Shown here: one piece after another, positions 11,004 to 20,474 of the stretch
Numbering within the stretch: the first letter of the stretch is position 1
Layout: every line of letters starts with the position of its first letter
Assembly (NCBI RefSeq): GCF_000244895.1
Contig: NZ_CM001441.1
Coordinates: forward strand, 620,001-684,000
DNA length: 64,000 bases
Source: Desulfosporosinus youngiae DSM 17734
GTDB taxonomy: Bacteria; Bacillota; Desulfitobacteriia; Desulfitobacteriales; Desulfitobacteriaceae
Direction of reading: 5' to 3'
Notes under the pieces: model-generated
Database searches by the model: none
Seen by the model: the letters and a program-made list of their open reading frames with translations, nothing else
Told to the model about the DNA's origin: nothing
Made by a program: the position numbers and the translations under genes

Positions 11004-11032
11004 TTGTCAAATAAACGTCGATTCTTTATACT
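11004..11032 (+). promoter_or_regulatory. Sigma-A type promoter of the bza operon
   Basis: TTGTCA at 11004-11009 and TATACT at 11027-11032 with a 17-base spacer, placing the transcript start about 20 bases before the cobalamin aptamer. An alternative -35 TTGACA lies at 10989. Confidence 0.65.
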
Positions 11033-11059
11033 ATACTTAGAAAGTTTTAAAAATTTGAT

Positions 11060-11218
11060 AACTGCAGGTGCCTCATTATGAGGAGAATAGGGAAGTCGGT
11101 GTAAGTCCGATGCGGTCCCGCCACTGTAAACGGGGAGCAAGAAGTAAGTATAACCACGGGGTAATTCCCGGAAGGTGCTTTATCGTGTTGATCCGTAAGC
11201 CAGGAGACCTGCCTGTAG
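11060..11218 (+). promoter_or_regulatory. Cobalamin riboswitch aptamer
   Basis: The conserved blocks of the AdoCbl riboswitch occur in order: GGTGCC with AGGAGAATAGGGAA, GTAAGTCCGATGCGGTCC, CGCCACTGTAAACGGGG, and the 3' block AAGCCAGGAGACCTGCCT. It sits in the leader of the bza operon, so high cobalamin should switch off synthesis of the cobamide lower ligand. This context separates the following ThiC paralogs from true thiamin ThiC, which would normally lie behind a TPP riboswitch. Confidence 0.95.
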
Positions 11219-11272
11219 TTAAGCTGAGTCTACCTTGTCGAAGAACCAAGAGTAGCGTGGATGAGATTATGG

Positions 11273-11378: not shown

Positions 11379-12665
11379 GTGACGTTAATGGAAATGGCCC
11401 AAAGGGGTGAAGAAATTCCACTGTTTTTCTTGATAGCTCAAAATGAACGAATGAATGTGCAACTATTGATGGAACGGGTTGCTAAGGGACAGATTGTTAT
11501 TCCTTATAACCGTCATCACGAGCCCGCACATCCTCAAGGGTTCGGACATGGATTAAGTACTAAGGTTAGTGCCAGCATCGGCCTGGCTTCTGACGAGGAT
11601 AGTCTGGAGGAAGAACTAATTAAAGTGGATGAGGCCATCAGGGCGGGAACGAATGCGATTATGGATTTAAGTACAGCCGGAGATATGGACAAGGCAAGGC
11701 GGGAAATTATCAAAAGAGTACCATTGCCTTTAGGCACACTGCCGGTTTATCAGGCCTTTGCTGAAGCGGTTCAGGCTAAGGGTTCAGCCTTAGCGCTTGT
11801 GCCGGAGGATTTTTTCAGGGTTATGGAACGCCAAGCGGCTGATGGAGTAGATTTTATGGCTTTGCATAGTGCTCTTCATTCCGGTTTATTGAAAACGGCT
11901 AAGAATGATCAGAGAGTCCTTAATCTGGTGAGCCGGGGAGGGTCCTTGCTGATGGGCTGGATGCTTTATCATGATCAGGAAAATTTTTTGTATACGATGT
12001 TCGACCGCATACTGGAAATTGCTAAAAAGTACGAAGTGACCTTAAGTTTAGCAGATGCCATGAGACCGGGTGCAGGTGCCGATTCATTATGCCGTTCCCA
12101 AGCCGAAGAACTCGTCATTTTAGGTGAGTTGGTAAAGCGCAGCAGGGAGGCAGGGGTGCAAATCATGATTAAGGGGCCCGGTCACACTCCACCGAATCAA
12201 ATTGCGGCAACCGTTAAATTAGAAAAACAAGTTTGTCAAGGTGCTCCGTATTTTGTGTTCGGTCCGGTATCGACAGATATTGCTCCAGGATATGACGAAA
12301 TTACCGCAGCTATTGGGGGGGCTATGGCTGGAGCTGCCGGAGCGGACATTCTCTGCTATGTCACACCTGCAGAACATATAGGTTATCCGGATGCTCAGGA
12401 TGTCTACCGGGGGGTGGTGGCTTCACGTATTGCTGCTCACGTCGCTGATCTCGCTAAAGGGTACCCGGGAGCTGAAGATTGGGACCTTAAAATGAGTCAA
12501 GCACGGCGGGATCAGAATGTAGAGGCCCAGAAAACCTTAGCTTTAGATCAGGAAAGGCTTACAGATTTCCACTCAAGTGAAAAACCTTTCTGCCATAAAT
12601 GTGAAAAGGACTGTGCTATGGCTGTGGCCGGCGAGTTCTTTCAAGAACTGCCGTGGGAGTGTTAG
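11379..12665 (+). CDS. bzaA: ThiC-like 5-hydroxybenzimidazole synthase component, BzaA-type
   Basis: A 428-residue ThiC paralog. In anaerobes BzaA/BzaB (or BzaF) rearrange the purine intermediate AIR into 5-hydroxybenzimidazole by radical SAM chemistry. ThiC-family landmarks are present: VSRGGSLLMGW, HDQENFLYTMFD, GPVSTDIAPGYDEIT, CYVTPAEH (metal-binding His) and GPGHTP (second metal His). The C-terminal cluster motif reads CHKCEKDC, that is CX2CX3C. It differs from canonical ThiC in having KGPGH for EGPGH and ADAMRPG for GDAIRPG. Start is GTG 11379 behind AAAGGAGAAG; the stop is TAG. It is first in the cobalamin-riboswitch operon. The A label follows gene order, not phylogeny. Confidence 0.88.
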   Translation: MTLMEMAQRGEEIPLFFLIAQNERMNVQLLMERVAKGQIVIPYNRHHEPAHPQGFGHGLSTKVSASIGLASDEDSLEEELIKVDEAIRAGTNAIMDLSTAGDMDKARREIIKRVPLPLGTLPVYQAFAEAVQAKGSALALVPEDFFRVMERQAADGVDFMALHSALHSGLLKTAKNDQRVLNLVSRGGSLLMGWMLYHDQENFLYTMFDRILEIAKKYEVTLSLADAMRPGAGADSLCRSQAEELVILGELVKRSREAGVQIMIKGPGHTPPNQIAATVKLEKQVCQGAPYFVFGPVSTDIAPGYDEITAAIGGAMAGAAGADILCYVTPAEHIGYPDAQDVYRGVVASRIAAHVADLAKGYPGAEDWDLKMSQARRDQNVEAQKTLALDQERLTDFHSSEKPFCHKCEKDCAMAVAGEFFQELPWEC

Positions 12666-12880: not shown

Positions 12881-14179
12881 ATGACCCAACTTATTAAAGC
12901 GAGACAAGGAATTATTACCCCTGAGGTGGAGAGATTAGCAAAGGTTGAAGGGCTTAGGGCGGATGAGTTAGGTGAGAAGGTCGCTCAAGGCCGAGTCGTG
13001 ATTTTAAAGAACAAGCAACGAAAGAACTCGGTTGCAATCGCGATCGGAGAAGGACTTCGCACCAAAGTAAATGCTAACGTCGGAACGTCGCCTGATTGTG
13101 TGGACTTTTCAGATGAGCTTCATAAAATAAAGGTTGCTATAGCGGCTGGTGCGGATGCCATCATGGAATTAAGCATTGGCGGGGATGTGGATGCCTTTCA
13201 CCGTCAGGTGCTGAATACCTTCACATTACCGATTGGCTCCGTGCCAACCTACCAAACAGGAATGGAAAGCATTGCTAAATACGGAAGCGTCGTGGATATG
13301 AAGGTAGAGGATATGTTCGAGATGATTGAACGTCAGGCCGAGCGCGGCATTGATTTTATGGCGATTCATGCTGCCTTAAATATGTCCATTGTTGAACGAT
13401 TAAAAAATCAAGGACGAATCACAGATATTGTAAGTCGCGGCGGAGCTTTTTTAACGGGCTGGATGTTCCACCATGGGCAAGAAAATCCCCTCTATGCTCA
13501 ATTTGATCGTGTACTTGAGATTTGCAAAAAATATGATGTAACCCTTAGTATTGGCGATGCTATTCGCCCTGGTTGTATCGAAGATTCTCTGGACCGCGCC
13601 CAAGTTCAAGGAGTGGTTGTGGCTGGGGAACTAGTGAAACGGGCCCTGGATGCAGGGGTTCAGGTGATGGTCGAAGGTCCGGGGCATGTGCCGGTGGATC
13701 AAATCCCGGCAACCATCTTACTCCAAAAACAACTCTGTCATCATGTCCCTTATTATATCCTCGGAAATTTGGTCACGGATATCGCGCCGGGATATGACCA
13801 TATTACAGGAGCTATCGGGGCTAATGCCGCGGCCATTGCAGGGGCAGACTTCATATGCTATGTCACACCTGCTGAACATCTTAGACTGCCAACGGCTGAA
13901 GATGTGCACGCGGGAGTCATTGCTACGCGCCTGGCCACCCATGCGGCAGATATAGTTAAAGGTGTTAAGGGTGCCCGGGAATGGGATTTAGCCATGGCTA
14001 AGGCCCGTAAAGCCTTAGATTGGGATAAACAGATTGAGCTGTCAATCGACCCTCCAACAGCCCGGAGAATTCGAGGAGAGCGTAACGAGGAGGGGGCAGA
14101 AGCCTGTTCTATGTGTGGTGGTTTTTGTGCCATGAAATTGGTCGGAGAACACCTTGGAAAAACGGGTGGATGCTGCTAG
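12881..14179 (+). CDS. bzaB: ThiC-like 5-hydroxybenzimidazole synthase component, BzaB-type
   Basis: A 432-residue second ThiC paralog, closer to canonical ThiC than its upstream neighbour: VSRGGAFLTGWMFHHGQENPLY, SIGDAIRPG, VEGPGHVP, TDIAPGYDHIT and CYVTPAEHL are intact. The cluster motif is CSMCGGFC (CX2CX3C), one residue shorter than the CX2CX4C of bacterial thiamin ThiC. The protein ends in a Gly-Cys-Cys tail. BzaA and BzaB are known to act together in other anaerobes to form 5-hydroxybenzimidazole from AIR. ATG start behind ATGGAGAG; stop TAG. Confidence 0.88.
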   Translation: MTQLIKARQGIITPEVERLAKVEGLRADELGEKVAQGRVVILKNKQRKNSVAIAIGEGLRTKVNANVGTSPDCVDFSDELHKIKVAIAAGADAIMELSIGGDVDAFHRQVLNTFTLPIGSVPTYQTGMESIAKYGSVVDMKVEDMFEMIERQAERGIDFMAIHAALNMSIVERLKNQGRITDIVSRGGAFLTGWMFHHGQENPLYAQFDRVLEICKKYDVTLSIGDAIRPGCIEDSLDRAQVQGVVVAGELVKRALDAGVQVMVEGPGHVPVDQIPATILLQKQLCHHVPYYILGNLVTDIAPGYDHITGAIGANAAAIAGADFICYVTPAEHLRLPTAEDVHAGVIATRLATHAADIVKGVKGAREWDLAMAKARKALDWDKQIELSIDPPTARRIRGERNEEGAEACSMCGGFCAMKLVGEHLGKTGGCC

Positions 14180-14289: not shown

Positions 14290-14796
14290 GTGAACCAAGT
14301 TGGGGTTATCATGGGAAGTGATTCTGATTATGACGTGATGGAGGAAGCCTTGGAAGTTCTTAGTCAATATGAAGTTTCTTTTGAAGTTATCATTTCTTCC
14401 CCCCAAAGGGCACTGAAACGAACGGTCGATTGGGTGAAAGGGTTTGAAACCCAGGGCGGAAAACTCATTATCGCGGCAGCCGGTTTAGCTGCTCATCTGC
14501 CGGGAGTTGTAGCAGGGGCCACGATTTTACCTGTGATTGGTGTTCCGATGAAGAGCGGTGCCTTGGAAGGAATCGACGCCCTTTACTCCATCGTTCAAAT
14601 GCCCCCGGGAATTCCTGTAGCGACCGTTGGCATCGGTGCCGCCAGAAATGCAGCCTTGCTTGCAGTACAGATTCTGATGAGTCAGGATAGTGCTTTGAGT
14701 TTCAGGCTGAAAGACTATCGGACGACAATGCTGCAGGATATTGAGGCGAAAGACGAAGCGCTGCAAAAGCAGTTAAGTGAAGGGGATTGTGCCTGA
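14290..14796 (+). CDS. PurE paralog lacking the catalytic histidine, bza-operon associated
   Basis: A 168-residue homolog of N5-CAIR mutase/AIR carboxylase PurE. It keeps the phosphate-binding GSDSD, the AAAGLAAHLPGVVAGAT loop and YSIVQMPPGIPVATVGIGAA. The invariant SAHR motif, which holds the catalytic His (E. coli His45), reads SPQR here (codons TCC-CCC-CAA-AGG), and PMHSG is PMKSG. The purine-operon PurE 5 kb downstream retains SAHR and PMHSG and is otherwise very similar, so this is a diverged duplicate. Position inside an AIR-consuming bza operon suggests a role in binding, supplying or channelling AIR; function unproven. GTG 14290 is chosen because AAGGAGG ends nine bases earlier. Confidence 0.85.
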   Translation: MNQVGVIMGSDSDYDVMEEALEVLSQYEVSFEVIISSPQRALKRTVDWVKGFETQGGKLIIAAAGLAAHLPGVVAGATILPVIGVPMKSGALEGIDALYSIVQMPPGIPVATVGIGAARNAALLAVQILMSQDSALSFRLKDYRTTMLQDIEAKDEALQKQLSEGDCA

Positions 14797-14832: not shown

Positions 14833-16431
14833 ATGGAATTGCAAAGGTTCTTTTGTGGTGAGAGCCCAATGACTTGTTCACAGTTATTTCAGTATAATCC
14901 TCAGGAGGCAGGGCCTCAGTATTTGGAAAATATGGCGACTGGGTACTGGTTTTCTGAGGTGTTGTTTGCGGCGGTTGAGCTGAAGGTTTTTAATCTGATT
15001 GATTCTGAAGGCAGGACAGCTCTTGAAATCGCTGAAGCCCTGGATATGGATCATTCCGGTCTGGACCGTTTTCTTCAGGCCCTCGGGGCCCTGGGGCTAG
15101 TGGTTAGGGATGCGGACTATTATTTTAATACCAGACTTGCCAGTGACTATCTTGTAGCTGGTAAGGGCGGCTACCAAGGCGAATCTATTCTTTGGCGCAA
15201 AAGACTGAGGTCAGGGTGGCAGGACCTTAGCAAATGTCTGAAGGCGGGCGGCAGAGTTGATTTCCCCCTTGAGGACGAGAGTCCGGAGCGATCAGCACAG
15301 CGGATTCGCCGCTACATTAAGGCTATGGATAATGTGGCAAGAACGAAAGTAGAGGAGATTCTGCCTTTTTTTGAGGGACTTGATCTGCAGGGAAAAATAC
15401 TTGATGTAGGAACAGGTTCCGGGTCGATTGCCGGCGGCTTTCTGGAGCGTTTTCCATCTCTGACAGCCACTTTAATGGATCTTAAGCAAGTGCTCGACTA
15501 TACCCGGGAACTGATGGCCGGGAAGGGGCTTGAGGGACGGGTTTCCTACATACCCGCTAATATTTTGGAACCCTGGACTGTCGTCCGGGAAGGGTTTGAC
15601 TTAGTTATTCTCTCAAATATTATTCACGCTTACTCAGAAGAGGAAATTCCGCTGCTCCTCGACCGGGCAGCAAATTGTCTTAAACCAGGAGGGGTTTTGG
15701 TTGTTCATGATTTCTTTCCCGAACACTTTTCGGCTAAAGCTGCATTGCTTGATTTGAATATGTTTATCAATACCTACAATGGCAGAACCTTTTCCGAGAC
15801 TTGGGTCAGGCAACAATTGTCCATGTCAAAACTGTACACAACCGAGCTGATTCCTCTGGAATCTGATACGGCTCTTATCTTCGCAGCGAAAGAGGAGAAG
15901 ACGCTGGCCAGTCTCCGACTGGATGGATTAACTCGTTTAATGGCCGGCATTAAAGCAATGGGATTTGCCCGGGTTCGTCCTATAAATACAGAAACTATTC
16001 ATGTGGCAGACTGGACGGATTTACGCTGTCAGTATGGCTGCGAGAGATATGGACAGGGACATTGCCCGCCCAATAGTCCTACTCCACAAAAAACCAGGGA
16101 GGTTCTCAAGGGTTTTTCTTATGCACTGTTATTAGAGGGAGAACCTTTAGGTGAAAGGTTTCAGAGAAAGGTTTTGGAAGCTGAAAGAGAGGCGTTTTTG
16201 GCGGGATATCACAAAGCCTTTGCCTATTGGGCGGGGCCGTGCGCTCTATGTGTCTCTTGCGCTGTAAGTGCTGCTGATGGGGAATGCCGCAATACACGGG
16301 ATGCCAGGCCCTCTATGGAGGGAGCGGGCATCGATGTCTATGAGACCGTCCGGCGGGCGGGACTTGAACTTCGGATTTTGCGCGACAAGGGCCAGTTTGT
16401 CAGGTATTTTGCCCTGTTGCTATTGGAGTGA
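14833..16431 (+). CDS. bzaC: SAM-dependent O-methyltransferase fused to DUF2284 metal-binding domain, BzaC-type
   Basis: A 532-residue two-part protein. Residues about 25-110 are a winged-helix dimerisation region and about 110-350 a class I methyltransferase (ILDVGTGSGSIAGGF, SNIIHAYSEEE, LKPGGVLVVHDF), as in plant-type/hydroxyneurosporene O-methyltransferases. BzaC methylates 5-hydroxybenzimidazole on oxygen to give 5-methoxybenzimidazole. Residues about 360-532 resemble DUF2284, with cysteine clusters CQYGCERYGQGHCPP and CALCVSCAVSAADGEC suited to a metal or iron-sulfur site. I cannot say whether other BzaC proteins carry this extension. ATG behind GGGAGAGG. Confidence 0.83.
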   Translation: MELQRFFCGESPMTCSQLFQYNPQEAGPQYLENMATGYWFSEVLFAAVELKVFNLIDSEGRTALEIAEALDMDHSGLDRFLQALGALGLVVRDADYYFNTRLASDYLVAGKGGYQGESILWRKRLRSGWQDLSKCLKAGGRVDFPLEDESPERSAQRIRRYIKAMDNVARTKVEEILPFFEGLDLQGKILDVGTGSGSIAGGFLERFPSLTATLMDLKQVLDYTRELMAGKGLEGRVSYIPANILEPWTVVREGFDLVILSNIIHAYSEEEIPLLLDRAANCLKPGGVLVVHDFFPEHFSAKAALLDLNMFINTYNGRTFSETWVRQQLSMSKLYTTELIPLESDTALIFAAKEEKTLASLRLDGLTRLMAGIKAMGFARVRPINTETIHVADWTDLRCQYGCERYGQGHCPPNSPTPQKTREVLKGFSYALLLEGEPLGERFQRKVLEAEREAFLAGYHKAFAYWAGPCALCVSCAVSAADGECRNTRDARPSMEGAGIDVYETVRRAGLELRILRDKGQFVRYFALLLLE

Positions 16432-16437
16432 ATTAAT

Positions 16438-17766
16438 GTGCGTATCTTGATGATCCAAACCCCTTCCGTCGAAGATTTTTCTCAGGAAAGAGTCTATCCG
16501 ATCGGGATTGTCCTTCTGGCCAGTCGCCTTCAAGGGTATGATCATGAAGTCAGTATCTTGGATATGAACCTGGAGAGAGATCCTTATGGAGCGCTGAAGG
16601 AGAAGCTGCTGACATTTCAACCGGAGGGGATTGGTTTATCCCTACGTAATATTGACCCTTTGGGCAATAAAACCAGCTCACTTGTTTCGCCCTTTATTGT
16701 TACGGTTCAGTTGATTGCTGCCGTTCTGCCTCAAGCGTGGTTGATTGCGGGCGGAACCGGCTTTTCTCTCTTTCCGGAACGGCTGATGATGGAGATACCT
16801 GAGTTAGATTACGGAATCGTGGGAGAAGCAGAGATGACATTTCCTGCGCTTCTCCGCTCACTGGACAATCCGCCGTCTTTGCCCGGGCTATGCCGGCGAG
16901 AGGGCCTGAAGGTGCATGTTTCACCGCCTGGGGCTGATTTTGATATGTCGGACTATGTTCCCGCGAATAGGCTGTTACTGGATCCTGTGCTCTACCAAGG
17001 GATTAATAATTACGTTCCCACAATTGGAATAGAAGCCAAACGAGGATGTGCGCTTAACTGTGCTTATTGTGTCTATCCCCGGCTTCAAGGGAGGAGATTG
17101 CGGTGCCGGCCGGCCGGGGCTGTCGTGGATGAAATAGAAGTTCTGCACAAGGATTATGGGATAAAAAGCTTCCATTTTACCGATCCTGTCCTGAACATTC
17201 CCCAGGGTCACCTGGAGGGAATCTGTGAGGAGATACTGCGCAGAAAACTCAGGATTCGCTGGGACGGATTTATGCGGGAAGACCAGCTTAATGAAAAAAA
17301 TGTCGCTTTGTTTGAACGGGCTGGGTGTGAATGTTTTTCCTTTTCCCCCGACGGTTTATGTCAGGAATCCTTGGATAGTCTAAATAAAAACCTTAGTGAG
17401 GCTCAGATTTTGAAAGCGGCAAGCCTTGTTGCCCAAACAGACACGGTAAGCGTCTATCATTTTATGGTCAATGTGCCTGGGGAGACGGAAAAGACCTGTG
17501 AAAAAAGTCTGCGGTTTGTCGAACGGCTTTACGAATTGCACAGCCGGAAAAGGAATTTGGGAACCATCATTTTAAATAATATTCGTATTCTGCCAGGCAC
17601 AGCGATCGAAAGGATGGCCAGGACACAAGGGGTCATTGACGCTGAAACGGATCTGCTCTATCCGACCTATTACAACCCGAAGCCGTTTAATACCTTAAGA
17701 TATAAGTTGGAAACACTTCAGCAGTGCAGAAATGTATTTATGTGGCAGGAGGTGAAGGTAAAATGA
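16438..17766 (+). CDS. bzaD: B12-binding radical SAM methyltransferase, BzaD-type
   Basis: A 442-residue class B radical SAM protein. The N-terminal half is a cobalamin-binding Rossmann domain (MRILMIQTPS start, GLSLRNIDPLG, LIAGGTGFSLFP, YGIVGEAE), and the middle has the radical SAM cysteines CALNCAYC after EAKRG. BzaD is proposed to C-methylate methoxybenzimidazole to 5-methoxy-6-methylbenzimidazole. The assignment to BzaD rests on operon order. GTG start directly after bzaC; its stop overlaps the next start (ATGA). The enzyme itself would need a cobamide, so the operon has an autocatalytic flavour. Confidence 0.8.
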   Translation: MRILMIQTPSVEDFSQERVYPIGIVLLASRLQGYDHEVSILDMNLERDPYGALKEKLLTFQPEGIGLSLRNIDPLGNKTSSLVSPFIVTVQLIAAVLPQAWLIAGGTGFSLFPERLMMEIPELDYGIVGEAEMTFPALLRSLDNPPSLPGLCRREGLKVHVSPPGADFDMSDYVPANRLLLDPVLYQGINNYVPTIGIEAKRGCALNCAYCVYPRLQGRRLRCRPAGAVVDEIEVLHKDYGIKSFHFTDPVLNIPQGHLEGICEEILRRKLRIRWDGFMREDQLNEKNVALFERAGCECFSFSPDGLCQESLDSLNKNLSEAQILKAASLVAQTDTVSVYHFMVNVPGETEKTCEKSLRFVERLYELHSRKRNLGTIILNNIRILPGTAIERMARTQGVIDAETDLLYPTYYNPKPFNTLRYKLETLQQCRNVFMWQEVKVK

Positions 17767-19259
17767 AGATTCTATTATTAGAGCATCCACGAAAGGTTTG
17801 TCAGGAGCGATGTAATGATATCGCCAACACTCCCCTGGCCTCTTGTCTTCATTCAGGATATGCCGCCGGTATGCTCAGAAGTGAAGGGCATAACGTTGAA
17901 ATTATTGAAGGTTTCCTGGATGGGCTGGATTACCAAGCAATAGAACGCAGGGTGAAAGCTCAGAAACCGGACATCCTGGGAGTTCATATGGTCTACCATT
18001 GGCAGACGGACACGGCCTTGTACGATTTTCTGCACATGGTTAAAGTTGAGCAACTATCCTCCTATATTACGGCTTACGGATATTATCCGACCACCGACTT
18101 TGCAGAGATCTTAAAGCAGTGTCAGGATATTGATTCAGTGATCCTGGGCGAACCGGAGCTCACCTTTGCTAAGGTTGCCAACGCTGTAACGAACCAAGCC
18201 AGCCTTGAAAATCTTCCCGGTCTCGCCCGGAGGGATAAGTGGGGAGAGATCGTTTTCCAACGCAGCGAACTGGTGGCTGATCTGGACGCGCTTCCGTTTC
18301 CTGTGCGAACGGAAGCATTGTTCCGATTGCCCGAGGTAAACCTGCAGGGGAGTAGGGGATGCTATGGAGGATGTACTTTTTGCTACATTAATCCGTTTTA
18401 CGGTCAAGGGTCTAAATGGCGTGGGCGAAGTCCGGAAAATATCATCGCGGAGATCGATGACTTAATGGCTAAACATAGAATAAAGGATTTCTATTTTACT
18501 GATCCGAACTTTTTCGGTCCGGGTGAAAGAGGTCAGCAACGAGCCATGCGCTTGGCTGCTCTTCTTAAATCCAGGAACCTTAGGTTTGGCATCGAGGCCC
18601 GGGTTAACGATATTCATGACGAAACCATAAGTGCGCTTGTTGCAGCAGGGCTGCGCCATATTCTCATAGGGCTGGAGAGCGGCAGTGACCGTTCCTTGAA
18701 GCGGATCAATAAGATGACGACGGTTGCTCAGAATGAGAGGGCTATCCGGACCCTTCGGCAATACGGGATCGAACCTAATGTTGGGTTTATTATGTTTGAG
18801 CCGGACTCATCGTTAGAGGATATTCGGGTCAATTTTGAATTTCTGAAGCGCAATGACTTGCTGAAGAATCTGGCGATTACTGCTAACCTGCTCTATCATC
18901 ACCTGATTGTTTTAAAGGGAACGAAAGCTCACCGGGATCTCCAGGAGGCTGGGCGTCTGAAGGTTCAAGGCTCGGCTTATGAAAGCACCGTCGCTTTGAC
19001 GGATCCTAAAGTTGAGGTTTTAGCCCTGATCATGAGGAGAATTACGAACTTCCTTTTCGACCGGATGAATGGGATATGGGGTGGGAAGGTTCCGGAACCT
19101 GAAAATGCTCAGGAACGATATGCAACGATCAATGGTTTGTTGGTCAACCTATTTGAGAGTACTTTAGAGATGTTGGAAGTTGGGGGAAGGTTTACGGAAG
19201 AACAAATAGAGACTTTGCTTAAAAGCAATGAAAAAGAGATAGACAGTATTTTGTTATAA
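17763..19259 (+). CDS. bzaE: B12-binding radical SAM protein, BzaE-type
   Basis: A 498-residue class B radical SAM protein with an N-terminal cobalamin-binding domain (LGVHMVYHWQTD, VILGEPELTF) and radical SAM motif CYGGCTFC after LQGSRG. In operons with bzaABCDE the last enzyme is proposed to convert the methoxy-methyl intermediate to 5,6-dimethylbenzimidazole, so this genome is predicted to be able to make DMB. ATG 17763 follows AGGAGGTG and overlaps the bzaD stop by four bases. No cobT lies in this operon, unlike the Eubacterium limosum arrangement. Confidence 0.8.
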   Translation: MKILLLEHPRKVCQERCNDIANTPLASCLHSGYAAGMLRSEGHNVEIIEGFLDGLDYQAIERRVKAQKPDILGVHMVYHWQTDTALYDFLHMVKVEQLSSYITAYGYYPTTDFAEILKQCQDIDSVILGEPELTFAKVANAVTNQASLENLPGLARRDKWGEIVFQRSELVADLDALPFPVRTEALFRLPEVNLQGSRGCYGGCTFCYINPFYGQGSKWRGRSPENIIAEIDDLMAKHRIKDFYFTDPNFFGPGERGQQRAMRLAALLKSRNLRFGIEARVNDIHDETISALVAAGLRHILIGLESGSDRSLKRINKMTTVAQNERAIRTLRQYGIEPNVGFIMFEPDSSLEDIRVNFEFLKRNDLLKNLAITANLLYHHLIVLKGTKAHRDLQEAGRLKVQGSAYESTVALTDPKVEVLALIMRRITNFLFDRMNGIWGGKVPEPENAQERYATINGLLVNLFESTLEMLEVGGRFTEEQIETLLKSNEKEIDSILL

Positions 19260-19376: not shown

Positions 19377-19401
19377 AAGCTATCGGATAAATTCATAAGG
19401 A

Positions 19402-19470
19402 GTTCATATAACTGCGGAGATATGGTCCGCGAGTTTCTACCAGACTGCCGTAAATGGTCTGACTATGAGC
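19402..19470 (+). promoter_or_regulatory. Guanine-class purine riboswitch aptamer
   Basis: The full purine aptamer is visible: P1 GTTCATA / TATGAGC; P2 GCGGA / TCCGC around GATATGG; the joining AGTTTCTACC; and P3 AGAC / GTCT with loop TGCCGTAAATG. The 3' junction is GACTATG, so the specificity base is C, which indicates guanine rather than adenine. It controls purE-purD and lies only five bases before the PRPP aptamer. Confidence 0.93.
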
Positions 19471-19475
19471 GAAAG

Positions 19476-19755
19476 TGTACCTAGGGCAACTAAGGCGAAT
19501 CGCCGCCGGTCCCTTCTCTCGCCGTCCTTGGCTGACAGGGACACCCGGCCGTCTATGGCCGTTGGCAGAAGACCGGTGCCGGCTAAGTTTCTTGGCACTT
19601 GTGCTTAGAAAGTATAAATTTGCGTTATACTTTCTAAGCACAAGTACAGTTAAGGCGGCCGCCTACGGCTTGGCTCCGGCCAAGTTTTCTTTGTCCGAGT
19701 GGTACAGGTTTGATTGCGAGATCAAATTACACCGAAGGGATAAAAGCCCAGGCGG
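19476..19755 (+). promoter_or_regulatory. PRPP riboswitch (ykkC subtype) with an unusually long insertion
   Basis: Conserved ykkC-family blocks are TGTACCTAGGGCAACTAAGG at 19476 and GTCCGAGTGGTACAGG ending near 19708, closing P1 as TGTACC (19476-19481) with GGTACA (19701-19706). They are followed by ACACCGAAGGGATAAAAGCC and CAGGCGGGTAGG. This subtype in front of purine genes senses PRPP. Normally the P1 halves are about 60-100 bases apart; here they are 220 apart and enclose extra hairpins and a perfect 21-bp inverted repeat. The tandem with the guanine aptamer would permit transcription only when PRPP is high and guanine low (known for other Firmicutes). Confidence 0.8.
19597..19645. repeat. 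Perfect 21-bp inverted repeat inside the PRPP aptamer (repeat copy A)
   Basis: Arms 19597-19617 and 19625-19645 are exact complements (ACTTGTGCTTAGAAAG then TATAA) around a seven-base loop ATTTGCG. The inner part AGAAAGTATAAA and, 40 bases later, GCCAAGTTTTCTTT recur in copy C near 30.4 kb, marking this as a member of a dispersed repeat family probably inserted into the riboswitch. Confidence 0.7.
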
Positions 19756-19882: not shown

Positions 19883-19964
19883 ATCTAAGTATAGGTGAAA
19901 CTAAAGAGGCCGCCTGCGCCTGCAGCTTTCCCGCTGAGTTAATATGAAAGAGAGGCGAATATTT

Positions 19965-20474
19965 TTGAGCCAAATTGGAGTTATTATGGGTAGTGATTCG
20001 GATTTAAAGGTTATGGAGGACGCAATCAAGATCCTTCGTCAATTTGACCTTGATTACGACGTGAAAATTTCTTCCGCTCATAGAGCATTGGAACGAACTG
20101 TAGACTGGGTAAAGGGATTTGAGGCCCAAGGTGGTAAGCTCATTATTGCTGCAGCAGGGTTGGCGGCCCACTTGCCAGGTGTAGTGGCAGGTGCTACAAC
20201 GTTACCAGTAATTGGCGTACCGATGCATAGTGGGGCTTTAGAAGGGGTTGACGCTCTTTACTCCATCGTGCAAATGCCCCCGGGAATCCCAGTAGCGACC
20301 GTAGGCATTGGAGCGGCCCGTAATGCAGCTTTGCTTGCGGTCCAGATTCTGGCCATTCAGGATCAAGCTTTAAGTGATAAGGTTAAAAACTATCGTGCCC
20401 AAATGCTGAAAGATCTCGAAGCCAAGGATGAAGCATTGCAAGTAAGAATAAGAGAAGAGGGGACCCGGACATGA
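19965..20474 (+). CDS. purE: Phosphoribosylaminoimidazole carboxylase/N5-CAIR mutase PurE
   Basis: The purine-pathway PurE, 169 residues. The catalytic motif SAHRALER is intact, with GSDSD, AAHLPG and the YSIVQMPPGIPVATVGIG block. It forms CAIR from AIR, directly with CO2 or from N5-CAIR. No purK is present in this operon, so direct CO2 use (class II-like behaviour) is possible. I prefer TTG 19965 (M-S-Q-I-G start, AGAGG nine bases upstream) over ATG 19944, which lacks a ribosome site; the paralog at 14.3 kb starts at the equivalent place. It overlaps purB by four bases. Confidence 0.93.
   Translation: MSQIGVIMGSDSDLKVMEDAIKILRQFDLDYDVKISSAHRALERTVDWVKGFEAQGGKLIIAAAGLAAHLPGVVAGATTLPVIGVPMHSGALEGVDALYSIVQMPPGIPVATVGIGAARNAALLAVQILAIQDQALSDKVKNYRAQMLKDLEAKDEALQVRIREEGTRT

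Follow-up and report, generated by a model that had tools for sequence, protein, structure and literature searches.

A PurE paralog without its catalytic histidine in the riboswitch-preceded bza operon of Desulfosporosinus

Organization of the bza and purine loci

The window analysed was a stretch of 64 000 nucleotides from Desulfosporosinus youngiae DSM 17734; coordinates below refer to it and to its + strand. The bza operon is preceded by a cobalamin riboswitch aptamer (11049–11230; Rfam RF00174, 123.5 bits, E = 3.5e-31). The ThiC-like gene that follows (11379–12665; PF01964, 532.7 bits) was named bzaA from its place beside bzaB (12881–14179; TIGR04386, 733.6 bits for a cut-off of 700). We take BzaA and BzaB to form the 5-hydroxybenzimidazole (HBI) synthase. 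Further downstream lie bzaC (14833–16431), coding for an O-methyltransferase fused to a DUF2284 domain (PF08100, PF00891 and PF10050), and two genes for B12-binding radical SAM proteins, bzaD (16438–17766; TIGR04385, 770.5 bits for a cut-off of 450) and bzaE (17763–19259; assigned from PF04055, PF02310 and its place in the operon).

An open reading frame for a PurE homolog had been placed between bzaB and bzaC in the initial annotation, and this was confirmed by the frame itself and by the profile matches of the flanking genes. This gene, purE2 (14290–14796), starts with a GTG codon at 14290, 9 bases downstream of an AAGGAGG motif, and codes for 168 amino acids up to a stop codon ending at 14796. 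No terminator-like site was found on the + strand between bzaB and purE2. The paralog occupies the same place in 11 genomes, 3′ of bzaB and 5′ of bzaC (or of a purF paralog, see below), and the cobalamin riboswitch was found 5′ of bzaA in the window and in 7/7 relatives checked. Because of this conserved place and shared control, purE2 was considered as a component of the bza operon.

PurE2 was assigned to the PurE family by profile (AIRC, 189.7 bits; TIGR01162, 180.8 bits for a cut-off of 149.6). Its structure was predicted with a pLDDT of 89.2 and a pTM of 0.83, and the top structural matches of the model were PurE structures (Foldseek, TM about 0.86). Among these matches was 2NSH, described as 'E. 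coli PurE H45Q mutant complexed with nitro-AIR'. LarB, the AIRC-like protein of nickel-pincer cofactor synthesis, was ruled out by its profile (46.5 bits for a cut-off of 175).

The ordinary PurE gene with a SAHR motif, said beforehand to lie 5 kb downstream, was found 5.65 kb away, start to start. This gene, purE1 (19944–20474; AIRC, 206.7 bits), is the first of the purine operon and is directly followed by purB (20471). It is preceded by a purine riboswitch aptamer (19384–19485; Rfam RF00167, 81.5 bits), also found in all 5 relatives whose locus includes purE1. Promoter-like sites, which are consensus matches only, lie 5′ of both riboswitches (the one of the bza operon at 11004–11032). From the known behaviour of the two riboswitch classes, a lack of cobamides is expected to switch on production of PurE2, and a lack of purines that of PurE1.

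The genome codes for two PurE and, separately, for two LarB-like AIRC proteins, and no PurK was found in it above the cut-off. PurE1 looks like a class I enzyme by its AAHLPG motif and probably carboxylates AIR directly. Since no PurK was found, AIR has to enter the purine pathway through PurE1 itself, and the AIR branch point is exactly where a dead PurE subunit would act. Replacement of PurE1 by PurE2 was ruled out, as the window genome and the examined genomes with PurE2 retain a His-bearing PurE1.

Substitution of the catalytic histidine

The histidine of the SAHR motif is universal in PurE of classes I and II, where it acts as a general base (PMC9376930). Its replacement by Asn, Gln or Trp inactivates E. 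coli PurE, and the His-to-Gln change leaves only traces of activity in the Acetobacter aceti enzyme (PMC9376930). This catalytic histidine of functional PurE is missing from PurE2. As noted in the initial annotation, the motif reads SPQR: a CAA codon (14404–14406) specifies Gln39 in place of the residue corresponding to His45 of E. coli PurE. The phosphate and substrate motifs said to be kept (GSDSD, AAHLPG and SIVQMPPGIP) are indeed invariant columns of the alignment.

A collection of 107 distinct PurE sequences was assembled, 96 with His and 11 with Gln at this position. All 11 Gln-bearing sequences are bza-operon copies, from eleven Desulfosporosinus genomes. The proposal that loss of the histidine tracks linkage to bza therefore held in this sample (11/11 bza-linked copies, 0/96 other PurE), and from this distribution Gln39 is not a chance change. 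A Gln-specific DNA pattern, whose sensitivity was checked in the family only, had purE2 as its sole match among 398 genomes of the phylum. Of the 46 genomes of the family, 43 were matched by the corresponding His pattern, among them all 27 good ones. A wide occurrence of SPQR in stand-alone PurE, raised in advance as an objection, was encountered neither among the 96 sequences nor in the scan of the 398 genomes.

When the PurE2 sequences (n = 11) were compared with PurE1 of the genus (n = 25), near-complete consistent differences were present at two positions only. H39Q is fixed (Gln in 11/11 PurE2 and 0/25 PurE1). K34I is near-fixed: Ile, whose codon is at 14389–14391 in the window, is found in 11/11 PurE2 and 1/25 PurE1, the 24 others having Lys. 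The initial annotation had also given weight to the change of PMHSG to PMKSG. This weight was withdrawn and the Lys was ruled out as a functional change, as the position varies freely in both groups (occupied by S, N, H or R among His-bearing PurE1 and by S, N or K among PurE2).

The PurE histidine is the proton donor or acceptor in both directions of the reaction (PMC9376930). Decarboxylation of CAIR by PurE2, suggested earlier, is therefore not supported: in two PurE enzymes, little or no activity is left after the His-to-Gln change (PMC9376930). By analogy with these mutants of homologs, PurE2 has most likely lost catalysis and kept a site for an AIR-type ligand.

Selection and distribution of PurE2 and of bza-linked PurF

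In the phylogeny, all PurE2 sequences group as a single clade within the genus (support 100/98; recovered in 98% of bootstrap trees). The median pairwise dN/dS is 0.097 for PurE2 versus 0.064 for PurE1. In the six genomes having both operons, values of 0.097, 0.086 and 0.057 were obtained for PurE2, BzaD and BzaB respectively. These ratios indicate a constrained protein under purifying selection rather than an obvious relic, and the regulation and selection of PurE2 fit a dedicated role in the bza pathway. For the PurE1/PurE2 pair of the window, less than 6% of the nonsynonymous sites differ over residues 40–120, and synonymous sites are near saturation (dS 1.8, pS 0.68). With such synonymous values, a very recent duplication or a gene conversion was not favoured. 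Between strains, the median dS of the bza genes (bzaB, purE2 and bzaD) is about 0.8–0.9, versus about 1.4–1.6 for purB and purE1 in the same genomes, a lower value hinting that the bza operon may have been exchanged within the genus.

In Desulfosporosinus, 16 loci with a bza operon of this type were examined for retention of PurE2; they are related, and some come from metagenome-assembled genomes (MAGs). PurE2 is present in 11 of the 12 loci with whole-looking bzaA, bzaB and bzaD. It is absent from four loci with broken or missing bza genes: G022 (frameshift in bzaA, possibly a sequencing error), the MAG G026 (breaks in bzaB and bzaD), and D. lacus and a palsa MAG (bzaC-E lost). The exception is G019, in which bzaA-E look whole and both PurE2 and the PurF paralog are deleted remnants. 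The association of PurE2 with whole bza genes thus appears as a trend across related loci, and PurE2 was dispensable at least once. In G012 and G035, PurE2 is kept, bzaC is shortened and bzaE was not found. The bzaC products of these two genomes (L154:5855-6892 for G012; L153:7234-8247 for G035) match only about 65% of the window protein. With bzaC shortened, no bzaE found and purE2 kept, the final lower ligand of both may differ from that of the window strain.

PurE-like genes were found in bza operons across Desulfosporosinus (11 genomes) and not outside the genus, where none of 38 bza-type regions has a PurE copy; two more such regions, L152 and L157, have none either. Given these absences and the remnant in G019, PurE2 was ruled out as a general bza gene. 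Extra PurE genes unlike those of the genus itself were observed at G020:C59:42516 (L007), G029:C21:5010 (L006) and G022:C149 (L161). An identical 80-base stretch shared by those of G020 and G029 suggests contaminant contigs or a recent transfer.

A paralog of PurF, PurF2, which derives from the PurF of Desulfosporosinus itself, is encoded just 5′ of bzaC in the bza operons of G015, G016, G022 and G032 (L145:11574-12977, L147:6019-7422, L143:11731-13098 and L144:6367-7755). Remnants are present in G019 and G030 (L146 and L148), and the window strain has no PurF2. By comparison with 41 other PurF, PurF2 has Gln for Arg366 of the PRPP loop and His for Tyr258, the original residues being present in 41/41, and Pro for Thr92 and His for Gly326, originals present in 39/41. 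In G016, Arg89 of the glutamine site is lost too. The dN/dS is 0.12–0.17 for PurF2 versus 0.03–0.06 for PurF1. In G008, G191, G115, G128, G166 and G231, bzaAB have a second PurF gene beside them, and its PRPP motif is intact. Apparently intact second PurF genes co-directional with bzaAB were observed at L200, L204, L220, L223, L225, L229 and L239, in other genera of the phylum and in Desulfosporosinus G008. A cobalamin riboswitch was detected at 5/5 scanned loci with an intact bza-linked second PurF. By sequence, two kinds of bza-linked PurF exist, one with altered sites (in Desulfosporosinus) and one apparently intact. The occurrence of bza-linked PurF in Desulfosporosinus and in other genera argues for AIR supply being a trait under selection in bza operons, and the cases in other genera suggest that this supply has been tuned to cobamide synthesis on more than one occasion.

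Possible roles of PurE2 and relation to known systems

AIR is common to purine, thiamine and anaerobic benzimidazole synthesis. In the literature searched, no paper was found that says how anaerobes divide it among these pathways. In PurE2, the inactive PurE mutant of the textbooks exists as a natural copy kept by selection and set under B12 control beside an AIR-consuming synthase, which makes AIR partition directly testable.

The best explanation, held tentatively and somewhat short of an even chance, is that PurE2 is a catalytically dead PurE which keeps its fold and its AIR/CAIR site and which, made when cobamides are scarce, spares AIR for BzaA/BzaB. Low cobamide would switch on the bza operon and hence production of PurE2. 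PurE2 subunits would then enter octamers together with PurE1 and so lower the number of working sites per octamer, and/or AIR would be held in the dead sites of PurE2. Less AIR would be carboxylated to CAIR and more would be left for the HBI synthase. Our own data contribute the His-to-Gln change, its single origin, purifying selection, linkage to bza and the separate riboswitches of the two copies. From published work on homologs, the inactivation of PurE by His-to-Gln, the crystallization of H45Q with nitro-AIR and the use of AIR by a BzaF-type synthase are consistent with such a role. The sequences hint at mixed PurE1/PurE2 octamers, and this version is favoured because of the near-identity of both proteins outside the two sites and because no PurK was found. 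Against AIR sparing, cobamide synthesis needs little AIR, so that a big brake on purines seems costly, and a dead subunit could simply dilute activity with little effect. Furthermore, G019 has whole bzaA-E and only remnants of purE2, and PurE2 is missing from the bza operons of other genera.

The AIR-sparing role could be part of a wider scheme, which we consider rather unlikely as a whole. The neighbouring purine genes purE and purF would have been recruited into the B12-controlled bza operon, with catalytic residues altered in both. Combined with the active purine enzymes, their non-catalytic subunits would divert AIR towards cobamide synthesis when B12 is in demand. This would be a bacterial switch of the prozyme type, set where the purine, B12 and thiamine pathways branch.

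Other roles were weighed against the same data. PurE2 might leave PurE1 untouched and, as a homo-octamer, store AIR and pass it to BzaA/BzaB. The kept ligand-site motifs, the crystallization of a His-to-Gln PurE with nitro-AIR and the position of purE2 directly 3′ of bzaB would suit such a carrier. It is nevertheless unlikely, as the 38 bza-type regions of other genera lack any PurE, and the surfaces of PurE2 differ little from those of PurE1, offering no evident new contact area for a partner. A sensor of AIR or CAIR level, or a regulatory subunit acting on BzaA/B or as a prozyme-like activator of PurE1, would account for the strong constraint over the whole PurE2 fold, and dead paralogs that activate or regulate partners are documented (PMC3663545, PMC5201418). 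This role appears improbable, since PurE1 of the genus is normal by motif and relatives without PurE2 manage on PurE1 alone.

A changed reaction or substrate, for instance some remaining decarboxylation of CAIR or a benzimidazole ribotide as ligand, might be read from the trace activity of the A. aceti mutant (PMC9376930) and from Lys34Ile, the second near-fixed change, which lies beside the active-site loop. It was judged quite improbable: the histidine alone is placed to move the C4 proton (PMC9376930), Gln is unable to serve as acid or base, and a BzaF-type synthase requires no PurE. Finally, PurE2 could be a slowly decaying relic of an insertion of purE and purF into the bza operon, as in several strains PurF2 has altered catalytic sites, is truncated or has disappeared, and only a deleted remnant of PurE2 is left in G019. 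This is the least probable of the roles weighed, and very unlikely: PurE2 is full length without stop codons in 11 genomes, its dN/dS is about 0.10 at a dS of about 0.8, and the same single catalytic change is present throughout, when decay would scatter changes.

PurE, bza operons and dead paralogs are each known; no description of the three together turned up in the literature searched. PurE2 resembles ordinary PurE (N5-CAIR mutase/AIR carboxylase; PF00731, TIGR01162) in its fold and in its phosphate and substrate motifs, with 76% identity to PurE1. Ordinary PurE has the catalytic His, whereas every bza-linked copy has Gln; PurE2 also lacks a purine-operon setting and has a cobalamin instead of a purine riboswitch. 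The laboratory H45Q mutant of E. coli PurE (PDB 2NSH, 2NSJ) carries the same substitution at the same position, and the 2NSH sequence was checked to read SAQR. Unlike this mutant, PurE2 is natural and selected, occurs beside an active PurE and has Lys34Ile as a further change.

The order bzaA-B-C-D-E is that of known bzaABCDE operons of anaerobic benzimidazole synthesis, in which AIR is the substrate of the ThiC-like synthase (PMC6461909, PMC11117688); BzaF likewise converts AIR to 5-hydroxybenzimidazole (PMC11117688). The operons differ by the PurE copy, missing from the regions surveyed outside Desulfosporosinus. In the literature searched, which takes in a minority of subscription papers, PurE and PurF paralogs of bza operons were nowhere mentioned.

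The prozymes of trypanosomatids (DHS, AdoMetDC) are dead duplicates of a metabolic enzyme kept beside an active copy (PMC3663545, PMC5201418), as PurE2 would be, and DHS is a precedent with a purified dead paralog (PMC3663545). Selection on PurE2 and its coexistence with a His-bearing PurE1 were observed here, and its inactivity is expected from mutants of homologs. Prozymes were shown by biochemistry to activate their partner, whereas PurE2 is known from sequence and belongs to a bacterial operon under B12 control.
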